Virus record (IMG/VR): IMGVR_UViG_3300045743_000147
Location: 1-28,380 of that record
DNA: 28,380 bases
Reading direction: 5' to 3' (one strand)
From: a virus
The number at the start of each line of letters is the position of its first letter. Position 1 is the stretch's first letter. The translations under genes were made by a program, and so were the position numbers. The notes below the pieces were generated by a model. The model saw only the letters and a list, made by a program, of their open reading frames with translations. It was not told where the DNA came from and did not search any database. This document shows, in pieces, positions 2,651 to 11,992 of the stretch.

Positions 2651-2902
2651 ATGAATGAAAAAATTTTAGAAATTGCTCGTAAATCTGGGTGGTTACATGC
2701 TTGTAAACATGGTGGTGTTGATAGTAACTTAGATGAAGATTGGGAAAAGTTTGCCGTAGATATTATTAAAGAATGTTGTAGGATAGTAAATGTGTGGACA
2801 GAAGAAGATGGTTGTACAGAATCTACCGAGGATGTTTTTCAATCTAGGTGTGTTAAAGGATCTTTTGGTTTACCTAAAGATGTATACGGGAATTATCTAT
2901 AA
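2651..2902 (+). CDS. Small phage protein of the MNEKI/EKFA family
   Basis: 83 residues. ATG 2651 follows AGGA at 2641 and gives the typical family opening MNEKILEIARKSGW, preferred over TTG 2645. The middle reads EDWEKFAVDIIKECC, equivalent to the EKFAELIVRECM signature of a small protein family very common in large phages. Paralogs lie at 16083 and 16491. The role is unknown in all members I know of. Confidence 0.75.
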   Translation: MNEKILEIARKSGWLHACKHGGVDSNLDEDWEKFAVDIIKECCRIVNVWTEEDGCTESTEDVFQSRCVKGSFGLPKDVYGNYL

Positions 2903-3043
2903 TGTTAGCTTGGTTATATAAAAAATTGATTGGGACTTTTGTATTATAGAAAAATACCATTTTAAATATTTTGAGTTTTCTAATTCTGTGAATTTTTCTG
3001 AAAATTTAATATCAGGATTTGTATAAATATCTATGCTGGACAT
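2897..3043 (-). pseudogene. N-terminal remnant of a homing endonuclease (antisense)
   Basis: Minus-strand ORF of 48 codons starting at 3043 with a good AAGGA site 6 bases before ATG. Residues 1-37 include FTELENSKYLKWYFSIIQKS. This resembles the N-terminus of phage HNH homing endonucleases, where a KYxKWYF-like segment precedes the HNH core. The core (HHIIP region) is absent; the frame instead runs into the end of the + strand genes. A late-promoter motif on the same strand lies about 80 bases upstream (3130-3123). I infer a decayed free-standing endonuclease gene, inserted opposite to all other genes. Confidence 0.45.
2902..2949 (+). pseudogene. Possible truncated small ORF (15 codons)
   Basis: ATG overlaps the previous TAA (TAATG), giving MLAWLYKKLIGTFVL and a stop. 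The opening resembles the N-terminus of small phage proteins that continue into a zinc-binding domain, so this may be a gene cut short where the minus-strand endonuclease remnant begins. Weak evidence. Confidence 0.3.
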
Positions 3044-3075
3044 GTTGATTCCTTATTAACGTTAGAATGTTTAGT

Positions 3076-3111
3076 GCTTCTGGGGACGGCAATCTCGCGA
3101 GAAGCTTTTTT
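3076..3111 (+). terminator. Rho-independent terminator
   Basis: Stem GCTTCT (3076-3081) with AGAAGC (3100-3105), 18-base loop, then six T. It would end transcripts from the 1-2950 gene block before the promoter at 3142. On the minus strand the same hairpin sits in the leader of the antisense remnant. Confidence 0.6.
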
Positions 3112-3135
3112 GTTGCTATTAGTATTTATATAAAT
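3109..3135. repeat. 27-bp intergenic repeat, copy A
   Basis: Begins TTTGTTGCTATTAGTA and ends just before a TTGACA -35. Copies B (26865) and C (27919) differ by no more than one base over 27. Each carries TATTTATA, the reverse complement of the late-promoter motif. Confidence 0.85.
3123..3130 (-). promoter_or_regulatory. Antisense late-promoter motif, copy A
   Basis: Read on the minus strand this is TATAAATACT, an exact match to the T4 late promoter core with the following CT. It points toward the antisense endonuclease remnant at 3043-2897. Confidence 0.5.
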
Positions 3136-3141
3136 TAAAAC

Positions 3142-3169
3142 TTGACAAAATGCAAAATTGGGGTATAAT
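3142..3169 (+). promoter_or_regulatory. Sigma70-type early promoter
   Basis: TTGACA (3142-3147), 16-base spacer, TATAAT (3164-3169). It drives the DUF6915-like gene. Because ATG 3150 and ATG 3168 lie inside the promoter, neither can be the translation start. Confidence 0.85.
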
Positions 3170-3203
3170 GACACCATCATTTAAACTTTATGAGGAGAAA
3201 TTT

Positions 3204-3881
3204 ATCAAGGCGTATTTACATTCAAAAATCCACGCTAAAGCTTACAAAGGAAATAGTGACGATTATATCGATATTGATAATTTTATTGATTCATCTAAAC
3301 AAGCAGTGGCTGATGTGCGCCACAGGGCTATTCTACACTCGGCATTTGGGTGTTTTATTGTGGAGCAAGTGTTTGGTATTACTAGAATCAATTCGGACGG
3401 TAAAACGTATTCTCCTAGAGATATAGCAGAAGATCACATTCAACAAGACCTAAATGCAATATTTTCGGTAGACAAATATTTAAATAATATTAAATTGTTG
3501 GATATGCCGAAGATTAAAAATATATCAATTTTAGAACATGCAGAAATAGATTCCAAAGTTTTTGGTGTGTCTGAAGATTCTATATTACCTATTCATCATT
3601 GGATGGAAAGCGCATTCCAAACTATGCCTGATAATAGACATAATGTAATATTACATCATGCCTTTGGTATCATTATAGCAGAAAAGGTATTTGGTTTATA
3701 TTTAGAAACTGATGATAAAAAAGTATTAGTATCTGATATAATAAAAAATCATATTACTAGGGAATTTGGATATATTCCTACAATGAATGATTTTTTGCAA
3801 CTAATGAAAATTCAAGATTGGATGTCAGGTACTGCAAAGCATCATAGAGCAAAAGTGGGATTTATCCCTTTGGTAGATTAA
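3204..3881 (+). CDS. Tandem DUF6915-like protein, apparent ATC start
   Basis: The frame is open from 3150 but the promoter covers the ATGs at 3150 and 3168. The best start is ATC 3204: it follows GAGGAGAAATTT with the same spacing as the ATG at 12702 (AGGAGAAATTTATG). Read as Met it gives MKAYLHSKIHAK, close to the opening of DUF6915 proteins. The 225 residues contain two copies of one domain, each with a DxRHxxxLHxAFGxxxxExVFG core (about residues 39-62 and 153-176). Both copies end with a conserved region (RDIAEDHIQQDL, SDIIKNHITREF). Function unknown. Family assignment is from motif memory. Confidence 0.75.
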   Translation: MKAYLHSKIHAKAYKGNSDDYIDIDNFIDSSKQAVADVRHRAILHSAFGCFIVEQVFGITRINSDGKTYSPRDIAEDHIQQDLNAIFSVDKYLNNIKLLDMPKIKNISILEHAEIDSKVFGVSEDSILPIHHWMESAFQTMPDNRHNVILHHAFGIIIAEKVFGLYLETDDKKVLVSDIIKNHITREFGYIPTMNDFLQLMKIQDWMSGTAKHHRAKVGFIPLVD

Positions 3882-5124: not shown

Positions 5125-5969
5125 AAAAATTATTATTATGTATTGTGTTATTGGCTTTAACTGCATGTTCTGATGTTCCTAGTGGATATAGAGGTATTAA
5201 AGTTAATTTACTTGGTTCAGATAAAGGTGTAGACAATCAAGAATTGGGTACTGGTCGATATTGGATTGGTATGAATGAGCAATTATTTATTTTTCCTATG
5301 TTTACACAAACCCAAGTTTGGACTAAAGATGTAAATGAAGGAAGTCCAAAAGATGATAGTATGAATTTTGGTACATTGGAGGGTTTAGAGGTTAATACTG
5401 ATATTGGAATTACATATTCACTAGATCCAAATAAGGTTTCTGTAATTTTCCAAAAATATCGGAAAGGTATAGACGAGATTACAAATACTGTACTTCGTTC
5501 AATGGTAAGGGATGCTTTGATTAATGCTGCATCATCAAGACCAATTGAGTCGGTTTATGGTACAGGTAAAGCTGAATTGATCAAAACTGTTGAAGATACT
5601 GTTAGAAAAAATTGCGTTGATATTGGTATTAATATTGAACATGTGTATTGGATTGGTAGTTTGAGATTACCACCTACTATTGTTCAATCAATTAATGCTA
5701 AAGCATCAGCAACACAAATGACCGCACAACGGGAGCAAGAAATTTCGCAGTCGAAGGCCGAAGCTGATAAAAAAATTGAGGAAGCTAGAGGTGATGCACA
5801 ATCTACATTATTGATAGCTACTGCTGAAGCACAAGCAATTAGTATTAAAGGTAAAGCAATTTCCGATAATCCATTAGTTATTCAGTTGAATGCTATTGAA
5901 AAATGGAATGGGGAATTACCAACAACAATGGTTCCTGGTGCCGCTGTACCTTTTGTTAATATTAAATAA
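5121..5969 (+). CDS. SPFH/band-7 (prohibitin-like) lipoprotein
   Basis: 282 residues. Residues 1-16 are a lipoprotein signal (LLALTAC, lipid on Cys16). Residues 17-180 fit the SPFH/band-7 fold: GYRGIKVNLLG near the start, a TQVWTKDV strand and IGITYSLDP. A helical segment follows (TQMTAQREQEISQSKAEADKKIEEARGDAQ), as in prohibitins and HflK/C, which form membrane ring assemblies. SPFH proteins at bacterial membranes scaffold or regulate proteases. In a phage it could affect HflB-type proteolysis or membrane integrity, but this is inference. Lipidation instead of a transmembrane anchor is notable. Confidence 0.85.
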   Translation: MKKLLLCIVLLALTACSDVPSGYRGIKVNLLGSDKGVDNQELGTGRYWIGMNEQLFIFPMFTQTQVWTKDVNEGSPKDDSMNFGTLEGLEVNTDIGITYSLDPNKVSVIFQKYRKGIDEITNTVLRSMVRDALINAASSRPIESVYGTGKAELIKTVEDTVRKNCVDIGINIEHVYWIGSLRLPPTIVQSINAKASATQMTAQREQEISQSKAEADKKIEEARGDAQSTLLIATAEAQAISIKGKAISDNPLVIQLNAIEKWNGELPTTMVPGAAVPFVNIK

Positions 5970-7447: not shown

Positions 7448-7584
7448 AAACGCTTGCTATTTGTTTATTATCTATGCTAGACTATATTACTAGAGACATT
7501 TACTTAACAGATAAAGAATTTTCAGATTATAAAGAAATCAAGGATTATTTAAACTCGATTATAGGATACTACCATTATGCTTAA
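7444..7584 (+). CDS. Small protein, 46 aa
   Basis: ATG 7444 overlaps the upstream stop (ATGA) and its own end overlaps the next gene by 8 bases. Opening MKTLAICLLSMLDYITRDIY, rest acidic and Tyr-rich. It bridges the two reading frames and may chiefly couple translation. Confidence 0.5.
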   Translation: MKTLAICLLSMLDYITRDIYLTDKEFSDYKEIKDYLNSIIGYYHYA

Positions 7585-8437
7585 AATTAAATACCAACCA
7601 AATAATTTTATAAACCAAACAGAAAAGGTAGTCACTTTTCATACTTTCTCTGGCGGCGAAGTACATGTAAATTTGGGATTAAATAATATAATATCTAATT
7701 CTATTGATGTCAATTACCCTATTCAGATTAAAGCAAGATTAGATTCTTCTGATGAATTGATGAAGTTATTGGTATTGACTGATGCATTAAGAAGAAATTT
7801 TGGTAATGTTATTGAATTAGTAATGCCATACATCCCATATGCTAGACAAGATAGAGCCTGTGTTGCTGGAGATTCTTTTTCTCTAAAAGTATTTACTGAT
7901 ATTATCAATTCTCAGAATTATAGTAAGGTTATTGTATCTGATGCCCATTCTATGGTATCATTAGCATTGTTAAATAATGTAGAAGAAATCCCACAAGAAA
8001 CTTTTGCAAATAGAGTTCATTCAAGAATTAAAAAAGATTATGGTACTGTGGATTTTATTGTTTCTCCAGATTTGGGTGCTAGTAAAAAATCTGAAGAATG
8101 GACAAAGATTAATGATATTAATGTTATTCAAGCAACTAAGGTTAGAGATAAATCAGGTTCTATTGTAGCTACCAGATTGTATGATGAAGGTGTTAATTTG
8201 GTTGGGTCTAAGTGCTTAATTGTAGACGATATTTGTTCGGGCGGAAAAACTTTCATCGAATTGGCAAAAGTATTAAAAAGTAAAGGTGTAGAAAAAATAT
8301 TTTTGTATATTACACATGGTATCTTTGATTTTGGTATTGATTGTATTTTGGATGGTGGTATAGATGATATTTACACTACAGATTCGTTTGACCAATCTGG
8401 TAATGCATCAGTAGTTGTTCATGAGTTTTTCTTATGA
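7577..8437 (+). CDS. PRPP synthetase-like enzyme (possible ADPR-PP synthetase)
   Basis: 286 residues, shorter than the usual 310-315. Motifs in order: PYIPYARQDR (about 87-96, matching the bacterial PYFxYARQDR), VSDAHS (about 121-126), TKVRD as the flexible-loop segment, and the PRPP-loop CLIVDDICSGGKTF (about 214-227), where standard enzymes read VDDMIDTxGT. Classic members make PRPP from ribose 5-phosphate and ATP. In phages a PRPP-synthetase relative next to a NAMPT relative can be the NARP1 pair, in which this enzyme (Adps) pyrophosphorylates ADP-ribose. The atypical SGGKT loop fits altered substrate, but sequence alone cannot decide. Confidence 0.85.
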   Translation: MLKIKYQPNNFINQTEKVVTFHTFSGGEVHVNLGLNNIISNSIDVNYPIQIKARLDSSDELMKLLVLTDALRRNFGNVIELVMPYIPYARQDRACVAGDSFSLKVFTDIINSQNYSKVIVSDAHSMVSLALLNNVEEIPQETFANRVHSRIKKDYGTVDFIVSPDLGASKKSEEWTKINDINVIQATKVRDKSGSIVATRLYDEGVNLVGSKCLIVDDICSGGKTFIELAKVLKSKGVEKIFLYITHGIFDFGIDCILDGGIDDIYTTDSFDQSGNASVVVHEFFL

Positions 8438-8907
8438 ATACAATAAAAGGTAATTTATTAGATTTAGCAGAACAAGGTAAATTTGATGTAATCGTGCATG
8501 GTTGTAATGCGTTTAACAATTTTGGTGCTGGTATAGCACTAGAGATAGCAAATAGGTATCCACAAGCTGATTATGCAGATAAATCTACTATACGTGGTGA
8601 TAAAACTAAATTAGGAACCTATACAAAATCTATAGGATTTTCGAAAACTACAAAAGTTAATAGTTTTGTTATCATCAATGCTTATACTCAATATGGTTGT
8701 AATGCATCAAAACATGTAGATTTATTTGAATATGCTTCTTTTCAAAATATTTTAAATAGTTTAGCAGAAGAATACCCAGATAGCAGATTTGGGTTTCCAA
8801 AAATTGGATGTGGTTTAGCTGGTGGAAACGAAAGAAGAATTTTAGATATGATCGATGATTTTTCTAAATTAATTAATGGTTCGGTAACTGTTGTGGAGTT
8901 CGGATAA
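8434..8907 (+). CDS. Macro domain protein (ADP-ribose binding/hydrolysis)
   Basis: 157 residues, one macro domain. Motifs: GNLLDL near residue 6, HGCNAFNNFGAGIALEI at about 22-38 (ligand-binding Asn-Gly-Ala loop), INAYTQYG at about 87-94 and FPKIGCGLAGG at about 120-130 (phosphate-binding loop). The pattern is closest to Poa1p/ADP-ribose 1''-phosphate phosphatase-like proteins. It overlaps the PRPP-synthetase-like gene by ATGA and lies in an NAD+ salvage island, so its ligand may be ADP-ribose or its 1''-phosphate released by host NAD+-consuming defences or by RNA repair. Exact activity unknown. Confidence 0.88.
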   Translation: MNTIKGNLLDLAEQGKFDVIVHGCNAFNNFGAGIALEIANRYPQADYADKSTIRGDKTKLGTYTKSIGFSKTTKVNSFVIINAYTQYGCNASKHVDLFEYASFQNILNSLAEEYPDSRFGFPKIGCGLAGGNERRILDMIDDFSKLINGSVTVVEFG

Positions 8908-9326
8908 TGCAAGATAGATATTTTAATAATCAAGAATGTATAGATAGATTATTCAATGATTATAAACAACATGGTAATTTGTTTGTAGCATTTGATTTCG
9001 ATGATACCGTATTTGATTTTCATAACAAAGGTGATTATTTTTCTAAAATGGAAAGTTTATTAAGAGAACTTTATGATAGAAAATTTACATTGATTTTGTT
9101 TACTGGTAATGAAGGTGACAAACTTGATGCAGCAGTTAACTATTGTGTTGAACGTGGATATAAACCAACATATGTAAACGAGAATCCTATTATGGCTACT
9201 AGAAAGCCATATTATAATATTCTATTTGATGATAGATCTAGTTTATCTGAAGCCTATTGTATTATGAATTCTGTATTAAATAAAATAGATTTAGCAGAAG
9301 AATTTAACAAAAATGTTTTAATTTAG
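8907..9326 (+). CDS. HAD-like phosphatase
   Basis: 139 residues. FVAFDFDDTVFDFH (about 27-40) gives HAD motif I DxDxT/V with the nucleophile and acid Asp. LFTGNEG (about 66-72) matches motif II (S/T). YYNILFDDRSS (about 105-115) supplies the motif IV Asp pair. The cap is minimal. It starts on the stop of the macro gene (TAATG). Similar small HAD proteins are common in phages; substrate unknown, likely a phosphorylated nucleotide or sugar given the neighbours. Confidence 0.8.
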   Translation: MQDRYFNNQECIDRLFNDYKQHGNLFVAFDFDDTVFDFHNKGDYFSKMESLLRELYDRKFTLILFTGNEGDKLDAAVNYCVERGYKPTYVNENPIMATRKPYYNILFDDRSSLSEAYCIMNSVLNKIDLAEEFNKNVLI

Positions 9327-9333
9327 GATTATT

Positions 9334-9582
9334 ATGAATTTATATTTATTGAGTCAATATGAAGAGCGTGGTTATGATACTTTTGATAGTTGTATTGTAG
9401 CTGCATTAAACGAAGATAATGCTAGAATGACACATCCAGATGGTATAGATAATTGGGGTGGTACTTATTGTAGTCGTAGTTGGTGTAGATCTCCAGATGA
9501 TGTTGTTGTAGAATTGATTGGTATTGCAGATCCTTCTATAGATACACCAAGAATCATACTATCAAGTTTTAATGCGGGGTAA
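9334..9582 (+). CDS. Conserved phage hypothetical protein, 82 aa
   Basis: Opening MNLYLLSQYEERGYDTFDSCIVAA with later ARMTHPDG, WCRSPDDVVVELIG and ending SFNAG. I recognise this order as a widespread small phage family (GYDTYDSxVVAA ... HP ... W ... VxxIGxA ... SFNAG) of unknown function. AGGA precedes ATG. Confidence 0.8.
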   Translation: MNLYLLSQYEERGYDTFDSCIVAALNEDNARMTHPDGIDNWGGTYCSRSWCRSPDDVVVELIGIADPSIDTPRIILSSFNAG

Positions 9583-9586
9583 AGAC

Positions 9587-9970
9587 ATGAAAAAAGCCTT
9601 CCTTGGGGGAACTTGTGGAAATTCAACATGGAGAGAATTCCTAATCCCACTATTGAATATTGATTATTTTAATCCTGTAGTATCAGATTGGAATCCTGAA
9701 TGTCAAGAAAGAGAACTTCTGGAAAGAGAAATTTGTGATTATTGTTTATATGTGATAACATCTGATATGACTGGTGTATATTCTATTGCTGAAGCTGTTG
9801 ATGATAGCAATAAAAGACCACTCAAAACAATATTTTGTTATATTGATGATCAACATTTCACCTCACATCAAATAAAATCATTAATTCAAACTGGCCGATT
9901 AATAGAAAGCAATGGCGGTAAATGTTTTAGAAATTTAATTGATGTAGCAGAATATTTAAATAAAGCTTGA
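9587..9970 (+). CDS. Nucleoside 2-deoxyribosyltransferase-like protein
   Basis: 127 residues from ATG 9587 (preceded by GGGGTAAAG; the ATG at 9572 would overlap the upstream gene). Opening KKAFLGGTCGNSTWRE and middle CDYCLYVITSDMTGVYSIAEAVDDSNKRP match the nucleoside-deoxyribosyltransferase-like family 2, with the Gly-rich nucleotide loop, a VITSDMTGVYSIAEA segment and the E that serves as nucleophile in true enzymes. This fold also occurs in ADP-ribose/TIR-like and nucleotide-binding proteins, so activity is uncertain. Its location between the macro domain and NAMPT suggests NAD+/nucleoside metabolism. Its stop is inside the -35 of the next promoter. Confidence 0.75.
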   Translation: MKKAFLGGTCGNSTWREFLIPLLNIDYFNPVVSDWNPECQERELLEREICDYCLYVITSDMTGVYSIAEAVDDSNKRPLKTIFCYIDDQHFTSHQIKSLIQTGRLIESNGGKCFRNLIDVAEYLNKA

Positions 9971-10032: not shown

Positions 10033-11457
10033 ATGAACGCTATAAATATGAAAGATGCTTATAAAATAGGCCACAAAGATCAATATCCAGAAGGAACCAC
10101 TGAGATTTATTCAAATTTTACTGCTAGATCTGGAAACTATTCTAATGTTCCAAATAGCAAAGGTATTGTGTTTGTTGGTCTACAATATTTCATCATGGAT
10201 TATCTTATTGAAGATTGGAACAACACATTTTTCAACAGACCTATTGAAAAGGTTGTAGCAAAATACAAAAGACGAGTATCTAATATTCTTGGATACGATG
10301 TTAATGTTGATCATGTCAGAGCATTACACAGATTAGGATATTTGCCTATTATCATCAAAGCATTACCCGAAGGCTCTTTCGTACCATACGGAGTTCCCGT
10401 TTTAACTATTAAGAATACACATCCAGATTTTTTCTGGGTAACAAATATGTTAGAAACAGTTCTATCATGTGAATTATGGCAACCAATTACATCAGCAACT
10501 ACATATGCTGCTTATAGGAAAATTGGAATTGAATATGCTGAATTGACTGGTGCTGCTATTGATTTTGTACCATTCCAATTCCACGATTTTTCAATGAGAG
10601 GAATGGCTGGTAGACATGCAGCTGCAATTTCTGGTTTTGCTGCATTAGCTGCTGGCTCTTATGGAACTGATTGTGTTCCTGCTATTGATTTAGCAGAAGA
10701 ATATTATGGTGCAAATTCAGATAAAGAATTGGTTGGGGTATCTGTAAATGCAACAGAACATAGCGTCCAATGTTCTGGTAGTAAAGAAAATGAATATGAA
10801 ACTTATATAAGATTGATGACTGATATTTATCCAGAAGGGATTTTATCTATAGTTTCTGATACTTGGGATTTTTGGAATGTTGTATCTAATTTCTTACCTA
10901 GACTTAAAGATACTATTATGTCTAGGAATGGTAAGGTTGTAATCAGACCAGATTCTGGTGATCCAGTAGATATTATTTGCGGTCTTGATATTGAAATTTT
11001 GGATACTGATGATTTTGATTATGCTAAAAGATGGGCTGCTGATTCATTAGAAGATGAAATTAGGTGCAGCACTCCACATGGAGAAGGTGGTGTTGATGAA
11101 CATTCTGGTATATTTAAATGGAAAGATTCTTATTATGAAGCTAAAATTGAAATTTGGTGGAATAGACACGATAAAAAATATTATTATATTGGTGATAGTG
11201 AATTAATTTCGTTTGAGGAAATTGAAATTCTACCAGAACAAAAAGGTTTAGTTGAATCTTTGTGGGATACTTTTGGTGGGACTATTAATACTGCTGGTTT
11301 CAAAGAATTGGATTCTCATATTGGTGCAATTTATGGCGATAGCATCACTTTAGATAGAGCCGAACGCATTTTTAAACGATTGGCTAAGAAAGGGTTTGCT
11401 TCTTCTAATATCGTTCTTGGTGTAGGATCTGCATCTTATCAGGGTGGATTAGGTTAA
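10033..11457 (+). CDS. nadV: Nicotinamide phosphoribosyltransferase, N-terminal fragment
   Basis: 474 residues from ATG 10033 (AAGAAGG upstream; the TTG at 10015 is not needed). NAMPT joins nicotinamide to PRPP to form NMN; the NARP1 relative (Namat) uses ADP-ribose pyrophosphate. Visible motifs: DAYKIGHKDQYPEGTTEIYSN near the start, FHDFSMRGMAGRHAA, NATEHS with the catalytic-His equivalent, SIVSDTWDFWNVV, VVIRPDSGDP with the substrate-binding Arg/Asp, and GVGSASYQ, the phosphate-binding loop. It then reads GGLG and stops. The remaining C-terminal part, beginning TRDTHGFAMKS, is a separate gene at 11708. So this is a truncated but otherwise intact N-terminal portion, holding most active-site residues. 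A phage-specific insertion (about 325-400) is present. Confidence 0.92.
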   Translation: MNAINMKDAYKIGHKDQYPEGTTEIYSNFTARSGNYSNVPNSKGIVFVGLQYFIMDYLIEDWNNTFFNRPIEKVVAKYKRRVSNILGYDVNVDHVRALHRLGYLPIIIKALPEGSFVPYGVPVLTIKNTHPDFFWVTNMLETVLSCELWQPITSATTYAAYRKIGIEYAELTGAAIDFVPFQFHDFSMRGMAGRHAAAISGFAALAAGSYGTDCVPAIDLAEEYYGANSDKELVGVSVNATEHSVQCSGSKENEYETYIRLMTDIYPEGILSIVSDTWDFWNVVSNFLPRLKDTIMSRNGKVVIRPDSGDPVDIICGLDIEILDTDDFDYAKRWAADSLEDEIRCSTPHGEGGVDEHSGIFKWKDSYYEAKIEIWWNRHDKKYYYIGDSELISFEEIEILPEQKGLVESLWDTFGGTINTAGFKELDSHIGAIYGDSITLDRAERIFKRLAKKGFASSNIVLGVGSASYQGGLG

Positions 11458-11704
11458 AATTGGTGATGTATATAAGATTGGAATTAGTACAAATTTAAAA
11501 CGAAGAATTAGTTCTTTATCCAATAAGTCCAAAGAAAAGGTTGAATTGTTATTTAAAAAAGAGTATACTTTACACAATGCATATCTTTTAGAACAGAAGA
11601 TATTAAAGGAAAATGCACAACATAGAATACAAAAAGAATGGTCAACAGAATTATTTGATTTAGATATATCAAATAATATAATTAAATATTTTAATGAGGA
11701 TTAA
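11453..11704 (+). pseudogene. GIY-YIG/T5orf172-type homing endonuclease fragment inside NAMPT
   Basis: The frame opens at 11453 and has no ATG, GTG or TTG near its start; an ATT at 11459 is the only near-cognate. It encodes IGDVYKIGISTNLKRRISSL, then a helical stretch with LEQKILKENAQ and KEWSTELFDLD. This matches the YKIGIsxNLxxR core and the C-terminal E..W region of GIY-YIG-related (T5orf172/MUG113) domains, missing the first strand. It ends four bases before the downstream NAMPT piece. The remnant of an endonuclease that inserted into the gene is the simplest reading. Confidence 0.75.
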
Positions 11705-11707
11705 AAC

Positions 11708-11992
11708 ATGGCTTTAACACGAGATACACACGGGTTTGCGATGAAATCTACTAACGCAGTTATTAATGGAGTTCAAACGCCTATCTTTAAAGATCCTAAA
11801 ACTGATAATGGTACTAAGAAATCTGCTAAGGGTTTATTGATGGTAACACAAGACGTTAATGGCTATCATTTAGAGGATATGGTTGATACTAAGGCAGAAC
11901 AAAGGGGTTGTTTGGAAACTGTATTTAAAGATGGTGTGTTGATTAAAACAACTACATTAGCTGAAATCAGAGAAATCACTTCTAGGATTTAA
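11708..11992 (+). CDS. nadV: Nicotinamide phosphoribosyltransferase, C-terminal fragment
   Basis: 94 residues. Apart from the first three (MAL) it reads as NAMPT C-terminus: TRDTHGFAMKSTNAVINGV, FKDPKTDNGTKKSAKG, and the end KAEQRGCLETVFKDGVLIKTTTLAEIREI. In human NAMPT the Arg of the equivalent LTRD binds substrate phosphate, so the break lies between two parts of the active site. It has its own GAGGA site seven bases before ATG, which suggests it is made as a separate chain that could assemble with the N-terminal fragment. I infer a split but possibly functional enzyme. Confidence 0.88.
   Translation: MALTRDTHGFAMKSTNAVINGVQTPIFKDPKTDNGTKKSAKGLLMVTQDVNGYHLEDMVDTKAEQRGCLETVFKDGVLIKTTTLAEIREITSRI

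Follow-up and report, generated by a model that had tools for sequence, protein, structure and literature searches.

Homing-endonuclease-linked fission of phage enzymes into separately translated chains has several precedents. In Aeromonas phage Aeh1, nrdA is split by mobE and NrdA is active, the split DNA polymerase encoded by 43A and 43B of phage 25 is active as well, and T4 genes 39 and 60, with mobA, are a further example (PMC2988022). The closest described case is the NAMPT of Pectobacterium phage CB7, which is divided into CB7_244 and CB7_246 by the HNH endonuclease gene CB7_245; no splicing was detected by RT-PCR and its authors suggested that the two chains assemble (PMC7344957). In the related Cronobacter phage PBES 02, NAMPT is intact. 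A first-pass annotation of the DNA considered here had put forward its split NAMPT as possibly a new case of fission in a metabolic enzyme, a claim to priority that gives way to the published unspliced CB7 gene (PMC7344957).

The window is a complete IMG/VR record (IMGVR_UViG_3300045743_000147) of 28,380 bases, with 29% GC and nearly all genes on the + strand; at the contig start (98–679) it encodes a low-complexity Ala/Asp-rich repeat protein. No near relative of the whole phage was found in the phage collection, and the split is carried by this one contig only. The relevant features are:

7577..8437, + strand: Prs/Adps-like gene of the PRPP-synthetase family, the usual neighbour of phage Namat/NAMPT
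8434..8907, + strand: gene for a macrodomain-like protein (phrog_335), part of the same run
10033..11457, + strand: N-chain of NAMPT/Namat, 474 aa, ending SYQ-GGLG-stop
11443..11457, + strand: N-chain tail, four extra codons (GGLG) and TAA after the conserved Gln-470, bordering the insert
11453..11704, + strand: 83-codon remnant of a GIY-YIG (MUG113/T5orf172) homing endonuclease, lacking a start codon, the GIY strand and the N-terminal part
11696..11700, + strand: Shine-Dalgarno-like GAGGA, 7 nt upstream of the C-chain ATG and within the last codons of the remnant
11708..11992, + strand: C-chain of NAMPT/Namat, 94 aa, starting MALTRDTHGFAMKS

The split is confirmed, and the coordinates and their reading are right. 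In profile searches PHROG_448 (NAMPT) matched the N-chain over profile positions 14–396 of 500 (E 1e-162) and the ORF at 11708–11992 over positions 400–493 (E 7e-26); the matches being consecutive, the two ORFs represent neighbouring parts of a single protein, between which three profile positions are missing, and PDB chains 9w5x and 9w5w match both parts. The N-chain has D8, Y10, R32, F186, R189, D213, the H243 region, R305, D307, G435, D436, G465 and S466. The first-pass annotation had followed NAMPT motifs as far as GVGSASYQ with a stop four codons on, and had assigned the missing C-terminus to a separate ORF with its own GAGGA site, and both readings stand. The ATG of this ORF lies two codons ahead of the first conserved residue. 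Of the 34 gene starts examined, 21 have a Shine-Dalgarno match of at least 4 nt ahead of them, as do 26% of all the ATGs in the window, which is AT-rich, so that GAGGA is ordinary for a gene here and is weak evidence when taken alone.

In every related locus that spans the junction (about 100 in IMG/VR, in isolate phages and in bacterial genomes, some on overlapping contigs) the sequence is a single continuous frame, where the window has two ORFs. The proposed gene fission, with an endonuclease remnant at the break and a re-started C-chain, is supported. Most relatives have one residue between the Gln and the TRD, and since others have a loop of 8–9 or about 12 residues, the site tolerates insertions in nature. 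The nearest intact genes, those of five loci (L067–L070 and L084), read GSFSFQYVTRD; when aligned with 10033–11457 and 11708–11992 they show 67 and 68–71% identity, respectively, and neither flank stands closer to these relatives than the other. Scanning with the pattern M-x-[LIV]-T-R-D for further C-parts that start in this way gave only two intact genes with a longer loop. No single-base error could restore one chain, since the two chains are in different frames and a further stop ends the remnant.

Further split NAMPT genes were present among the IMG/VR loci. In three of these (L083, L085 and L086; 1986–4309), which are identical within the junction stretch that was read, the gene is broken after TEHSVATSA... 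by a NUMOD4-HNH gene (2839–3435) and the C-part has its own ATG at 3428, which is the same region and endonuclease type as in CB7. In a fourth (L056, 3980–6403) the break is at the catalytic-His region, the inserted gene is an opposite-strand ORF of 236 codons, Cys-rich and HNH-like by eye, and the C-part restarts at 5543. All four resemble the window in having a NAMPT gene split by an endonuclease-like gene and a C-part with its own ATG, but differ from it in the type of that gene, HNH (NUMOD4) or a reverse-strand HNH-like one, and in a break at the catalytic-His region. CB7, like phiTE, shares with the window the enzyme family, the two ORFs separated by a homing endonuclease and an adjoining PRPP-synthetase-like gene (PMC7344957), but its break follows the catalytic-His segment (SEHSVATT...) rather than lying between SYQ and TRD, its HNH/NUMOD4-type endonuclease is whole whereas the GIY-YIG endonuclease here is dead, and its chains are of 278 and 332 aa as against 474 and 94. 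The Aeh1, T4 and phage 25 cases involve other enzymes and endonucleases, and the Aeh1 endonuclease is whole. Phage enzyme splits, NAMPT included, were therefore known already, from CB7, and the four loci above are further cases; what the window adds is a new break site, a GIY-YIG element and an endonuclease that is dead. Other arrangements were also seen among the NAMPT loci: in L017 (2170–5446), a NAMPT stub of 156 residues, an HNH-like ORF containing internal repeats and another NAMPT gene, this one intact, in that order; an 801-codon NAMPT with an in-frame intein-like insertion between RPD and CYADD (L076/L077, 1898–4303); single frameshifts, real or assembly errors, in otherwise intact NAMPT genes (L054/L055 at about 4720 and L100 at about 2390); and, in Klebsiella phage FKP3 (L196, 2483–4845), an HNH gene akin to the NAMPT-splitting endonuclease between prs and an intact NAMPT.

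A homing-endonuclease gene lies between the two parts of the window's NAMPT gene, though as a remnant only. The first-pass annotation had called it a GIY-YIG-type fragment, and profile searches agree in placing it in the GIY-YIG superfamily (MUG113, E 2.4e-9; T5orf172, E 1.3e-8). The T5orf172 match starts at profile position 15 of 101, so the first strand is missing; YKIG, RR and E47 are present. With the GIY strand and start codon absent, a functional GIY-YIG endonuclease was rejected. The remnant is in the frame of the C-chain, which is not that of the N-chain, overlaps the N-chain stop and accounts for nearly all of a net insert of about 268 nt; it ends NED-stop, and GAGGA is encoded within the NED DNA. 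Directly upstream of it frame 2 reads R-V-D-stop, which might be a mutated GVY strand. Its phage relatives match at 35–36% only, the nearest readable one being the C-terminal domain of a 408-codon ORF of Vibrio phage 1.084.O that has a treble-clef-like (zinc-finger-like) N-terminal part and adjoins a terminase gene; among 35 pattern matches in IMG/VR, no relative was confirmed. The simplest history is that a GIY-YIG homing-endonuclease gene inserted at a highly conserved site and then lost its 5' part, and fission of NAMPT by endonuclease insertion is very likely.

The first-pass annotation had named the enzyme NAMPT, which is right as to family, but it is more likely derived from Namat, which makes NAD+ in the NARP1 anti-defence pathway (PMC12774641), than an ordinary housekeeping NAMPT. 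Among solved structures a phage Namat (9w5x) is the nearest in both sequence and fold; for the fold comparison the intact sister L084 was modelled, rather than the window's own chains. The Namat of SpbetaL1 (PDB 9w5x/9w5w) has the closest sequence and fold, the same catalytic core and, as may be the case here, an Adps-like gene nearby, but it is a single chain with a complete GSxxxxxxTRD clamp. The Prs-family gene at 7577–8437 lies upstream in the same run, as in most relatives; family searches do not separate Adps from Prs for this gene. Between it and the split enzyme, at 8434–9970, are macrodomain, HAD-like and nucleoside-deoxyribosyltransferase-like (Nuc_deoxyri_tr2) genes, which possibly form an extended ADP-ribose/NAD+ counter-defence cluster; a PADLOC search gave no relevant match. 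Within the N-chain, residues 318–402 (10984–11238) form an insert of about 85 residues in the barrel domain that is absent from SpbetaL1 Namat and common to some phage relatives, and that consists of a helix and beta strands in the L084 model.

All catalytic and NMN-contact residues of SpbetaL1 Namat are retained across the two chains, which together hold a NAMPT-like catalytic core: D13, Y15, F189, S190, R192, D215, A242, R306, D308, G360, D361, G390 and S391 in the N-chain and T398, R399 and D400 in the C-chain (contact residues from PMC12774641; the SpbetaL1 numbering agrees exactly with that of the PDB chain). The first-pass annotation had placed the glycine loop and the TRD arginine in one active site, and they do share a pocket but come to it from opposite protomers: in the NAD+ complex of Namat the same phosphate is bound by G390/S391 from one protomer and by R399' from its partner (PMC12774641). 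The cut thus separates residues that share a pocket but that, even in the intact enzyme, are contributed by different protomers. It falls inside the specificity clamp of Namat and at a domain boundary, between helix 18 (SYQ), with which the barrel domain ends, and the strand (TRD) that opens the returning domain A; in the AlphaFold model of intact L084 this is between a short helix (470–474) and a strand (483–492), in a block of lower pLDDT (77). Strands 13, 14 and 17 are assigned to the central sheet of this domain (PMC12774641); judging from the published description and the model, they would follow the cut and lie in the C-chain, which would complete the sheet.

The clamp itself is altered. 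The diagnostic Namat motif is GSX-Phi-X-Phi-X-Phi-TRD, in which the aromatics at positions 3 and 7 touch adenine (PMC12774641); intact L084 carries this signature, whereas the window reads GSASYQ, then the break, then (M)ALTRD, with Ala at the first aromatic and the chain cut before the last. In SpbetaL1 numbering F392 is replaced by A467, at a position aromatic in 64 of 65 relatives, and R40 by N35, followed by Tyr, at a position that is K or R in 54 of the 65, while the Y396 position falls at the break. The R40A/F392G change in SpbetaL1 Namat lowered ADPR-PP-driven NAD+ synthesis 16.6-fold and left NMN synthesis intact (PMC12774641). Since positions 40 and 392 are substituted and 396 lies at the break, activity in core nicotinamide-ribose chemistry is likelier than ADPR-PP selectivity, and the clamp changes suggest either a shift towards PRPP chemistry or decay.

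The explanation that we favour, and regard as probable, is that endonuclease insertion split a NAMPT-family gene, that the endonuclease then decayed and that the two chains probably reassemble. A phage enzyme, most likely a NARP1-type Namat, would have been interrupted by a GIY-YIG homing endonuclease between SYQ and TRD; since then the start of the endonuclease gene, its GIY strand and any DNA-binding part would have disappeared, and what is left would now provide the N-chain stop and the C-chain ribosome-binding site. A single message would serve for translation of both chains, which would probably associate in trans: if the fold is as in the intact enzyme, strands of the C-chain would complete domain A's central sheet and the TRD of that chain would reach the active site of the other protomer. 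We infer this order of events, as we do the translation of the C-chain, assembly and activity. The explanation is supported because the ORFs cover consecutive parts of the profile, relatives are continuous, the insert is recognizable as a GIY-YIG domain, key residues are kept, constraint is similar in both chains, the break lies between a helix and a strand in a loop whose length varies naturally, and split enzymes have precedents, and to judge from the sequences a functional two-chain enzyme is likely. What counts against a working enzyme is the eroded specificity clamp, with which a dead or dying enzyme is also consistent, along with the relatively longer C-chain branch described below.

The most serious rival, which we consider unlikely without dismissing it, is recent loss of function, whereby the insertion killed the enzyme, the ORFs are open because decay has lacked time, and GAGGA-ATG is fortuitous or drives production of a useless fragment. 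The changes at F392, R40 and Y396, the decay of the endonuclease itself and the frequency with which Shine-Dalgarno matches precede ATGs in the window would all suit it. So would a slight lengthening of the C-chain branch, a relative measure: compared with the sister branch, that of the window is longer for the C-chain (0.289 versus 0.187) and shorter for the N-chain (0.189 versus 0.282). Against it, neither chain has a stop or frameshift, every catalytic and invariant residue is kept (including 16 of 16 columns invariant in the C-chain alignment), the start codon is placed just ahead of the first conserved residue, and split enzymes of this class work (PMC2988022). Moreover, dN/dS relative to L084, L067 and L070 is about the same in the two chains (approximately 0.18–0.20 for N and 0.23–0.26 for C, with synonymous sites nearly saturated), and the window's branch makes up similar shares of total tree length on a fixed tree (0.0072 for N, 0.0084 for C). 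Both chains therefore look equally constrained, and the similar rates and branch shares, together with the kept invariant columns, argue against long-standing decay of the C-part; the similarity in rates could also mean that the split is recent.

Beyond reassembly as favoured above, a more specific and speculative proposal, to which we give a rather small chance, is that a two-chain Namat has become stably fixed, that the break cut the ADPR-PP selectivity clamp and that the enzyme moved from NAD+ rebuilding (ADPR-PP) back towards NMN synthesis (PRPP), the dead endonuclease acting only as linker and ribosome-binding site.

It is very improbable that the parts are rejoined at the level of RNA or ribosome, by a group I intron, bypassing or frameshifting, to give one normal chain. 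Ribosomes bypass part of T4 gene 60, which lies next to mobA. Spliced introns exist in phage metabolic genes, several of them in CB7, but the split NAMPT message of that phage was itself tested and found unspliced (PMC7344957). Rfam searches of 11300–11900 gave no intron match even at E<=10, the only hit being a chance snoRNA (E 6.2), and folding of the junction RNA was unremarkable (z -1.2). Because about 250 of the 268 inserted nucleotides are endonuclease codons, there is no room for a ribozyme core, and a group I intron, left with some 16 nt outside the endonuclease frame, was rejected. Bypassing between the two copies of GGATTA at the ends of the insert was rejected too, as a ribosome would land outside the C-chain frame. 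An intein was rejected on account of the stop codons and frame change at the junction, in contrast to the continuous 801-codon frame of L076. The lack of an intron match, the differing frames and the stop within the remnant make splicing or a simple sequencing error unlikely, and the C-chain, with a Shine-Dalgarno site and ATG of its own, may be translated separately. Just as improbable is a metagenomic assembly or sequencing artefact: the split rests on a single contig and the frameshifted genes of L054/L055 and L100 are examples of errors, or of real frameshifts, in such data, but a 268-nt insert containing a recognizable gene fragment is no indel error, the relatives of the two flanks are the same and equally close, and joining the parts would need an indel as well as loss of a stop.

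Split NAMPT/Namat genes thus recur, with at least two break regions and several types of endonuclease. In the present case residues that build one active site have been separated, and the split was kept after the endonuclease died. With this locus one can ask directly whether an enzyme cut at the loop of its own active site can reassemble in trans, and whether the loss of a specificity clamp is tolerated or exploited by a phage enzyme of anti-defence. The likely role of the enzyme moves from housekeeping NAD salvage to the rebuilding of NAD+ against NAD-depleting defence.
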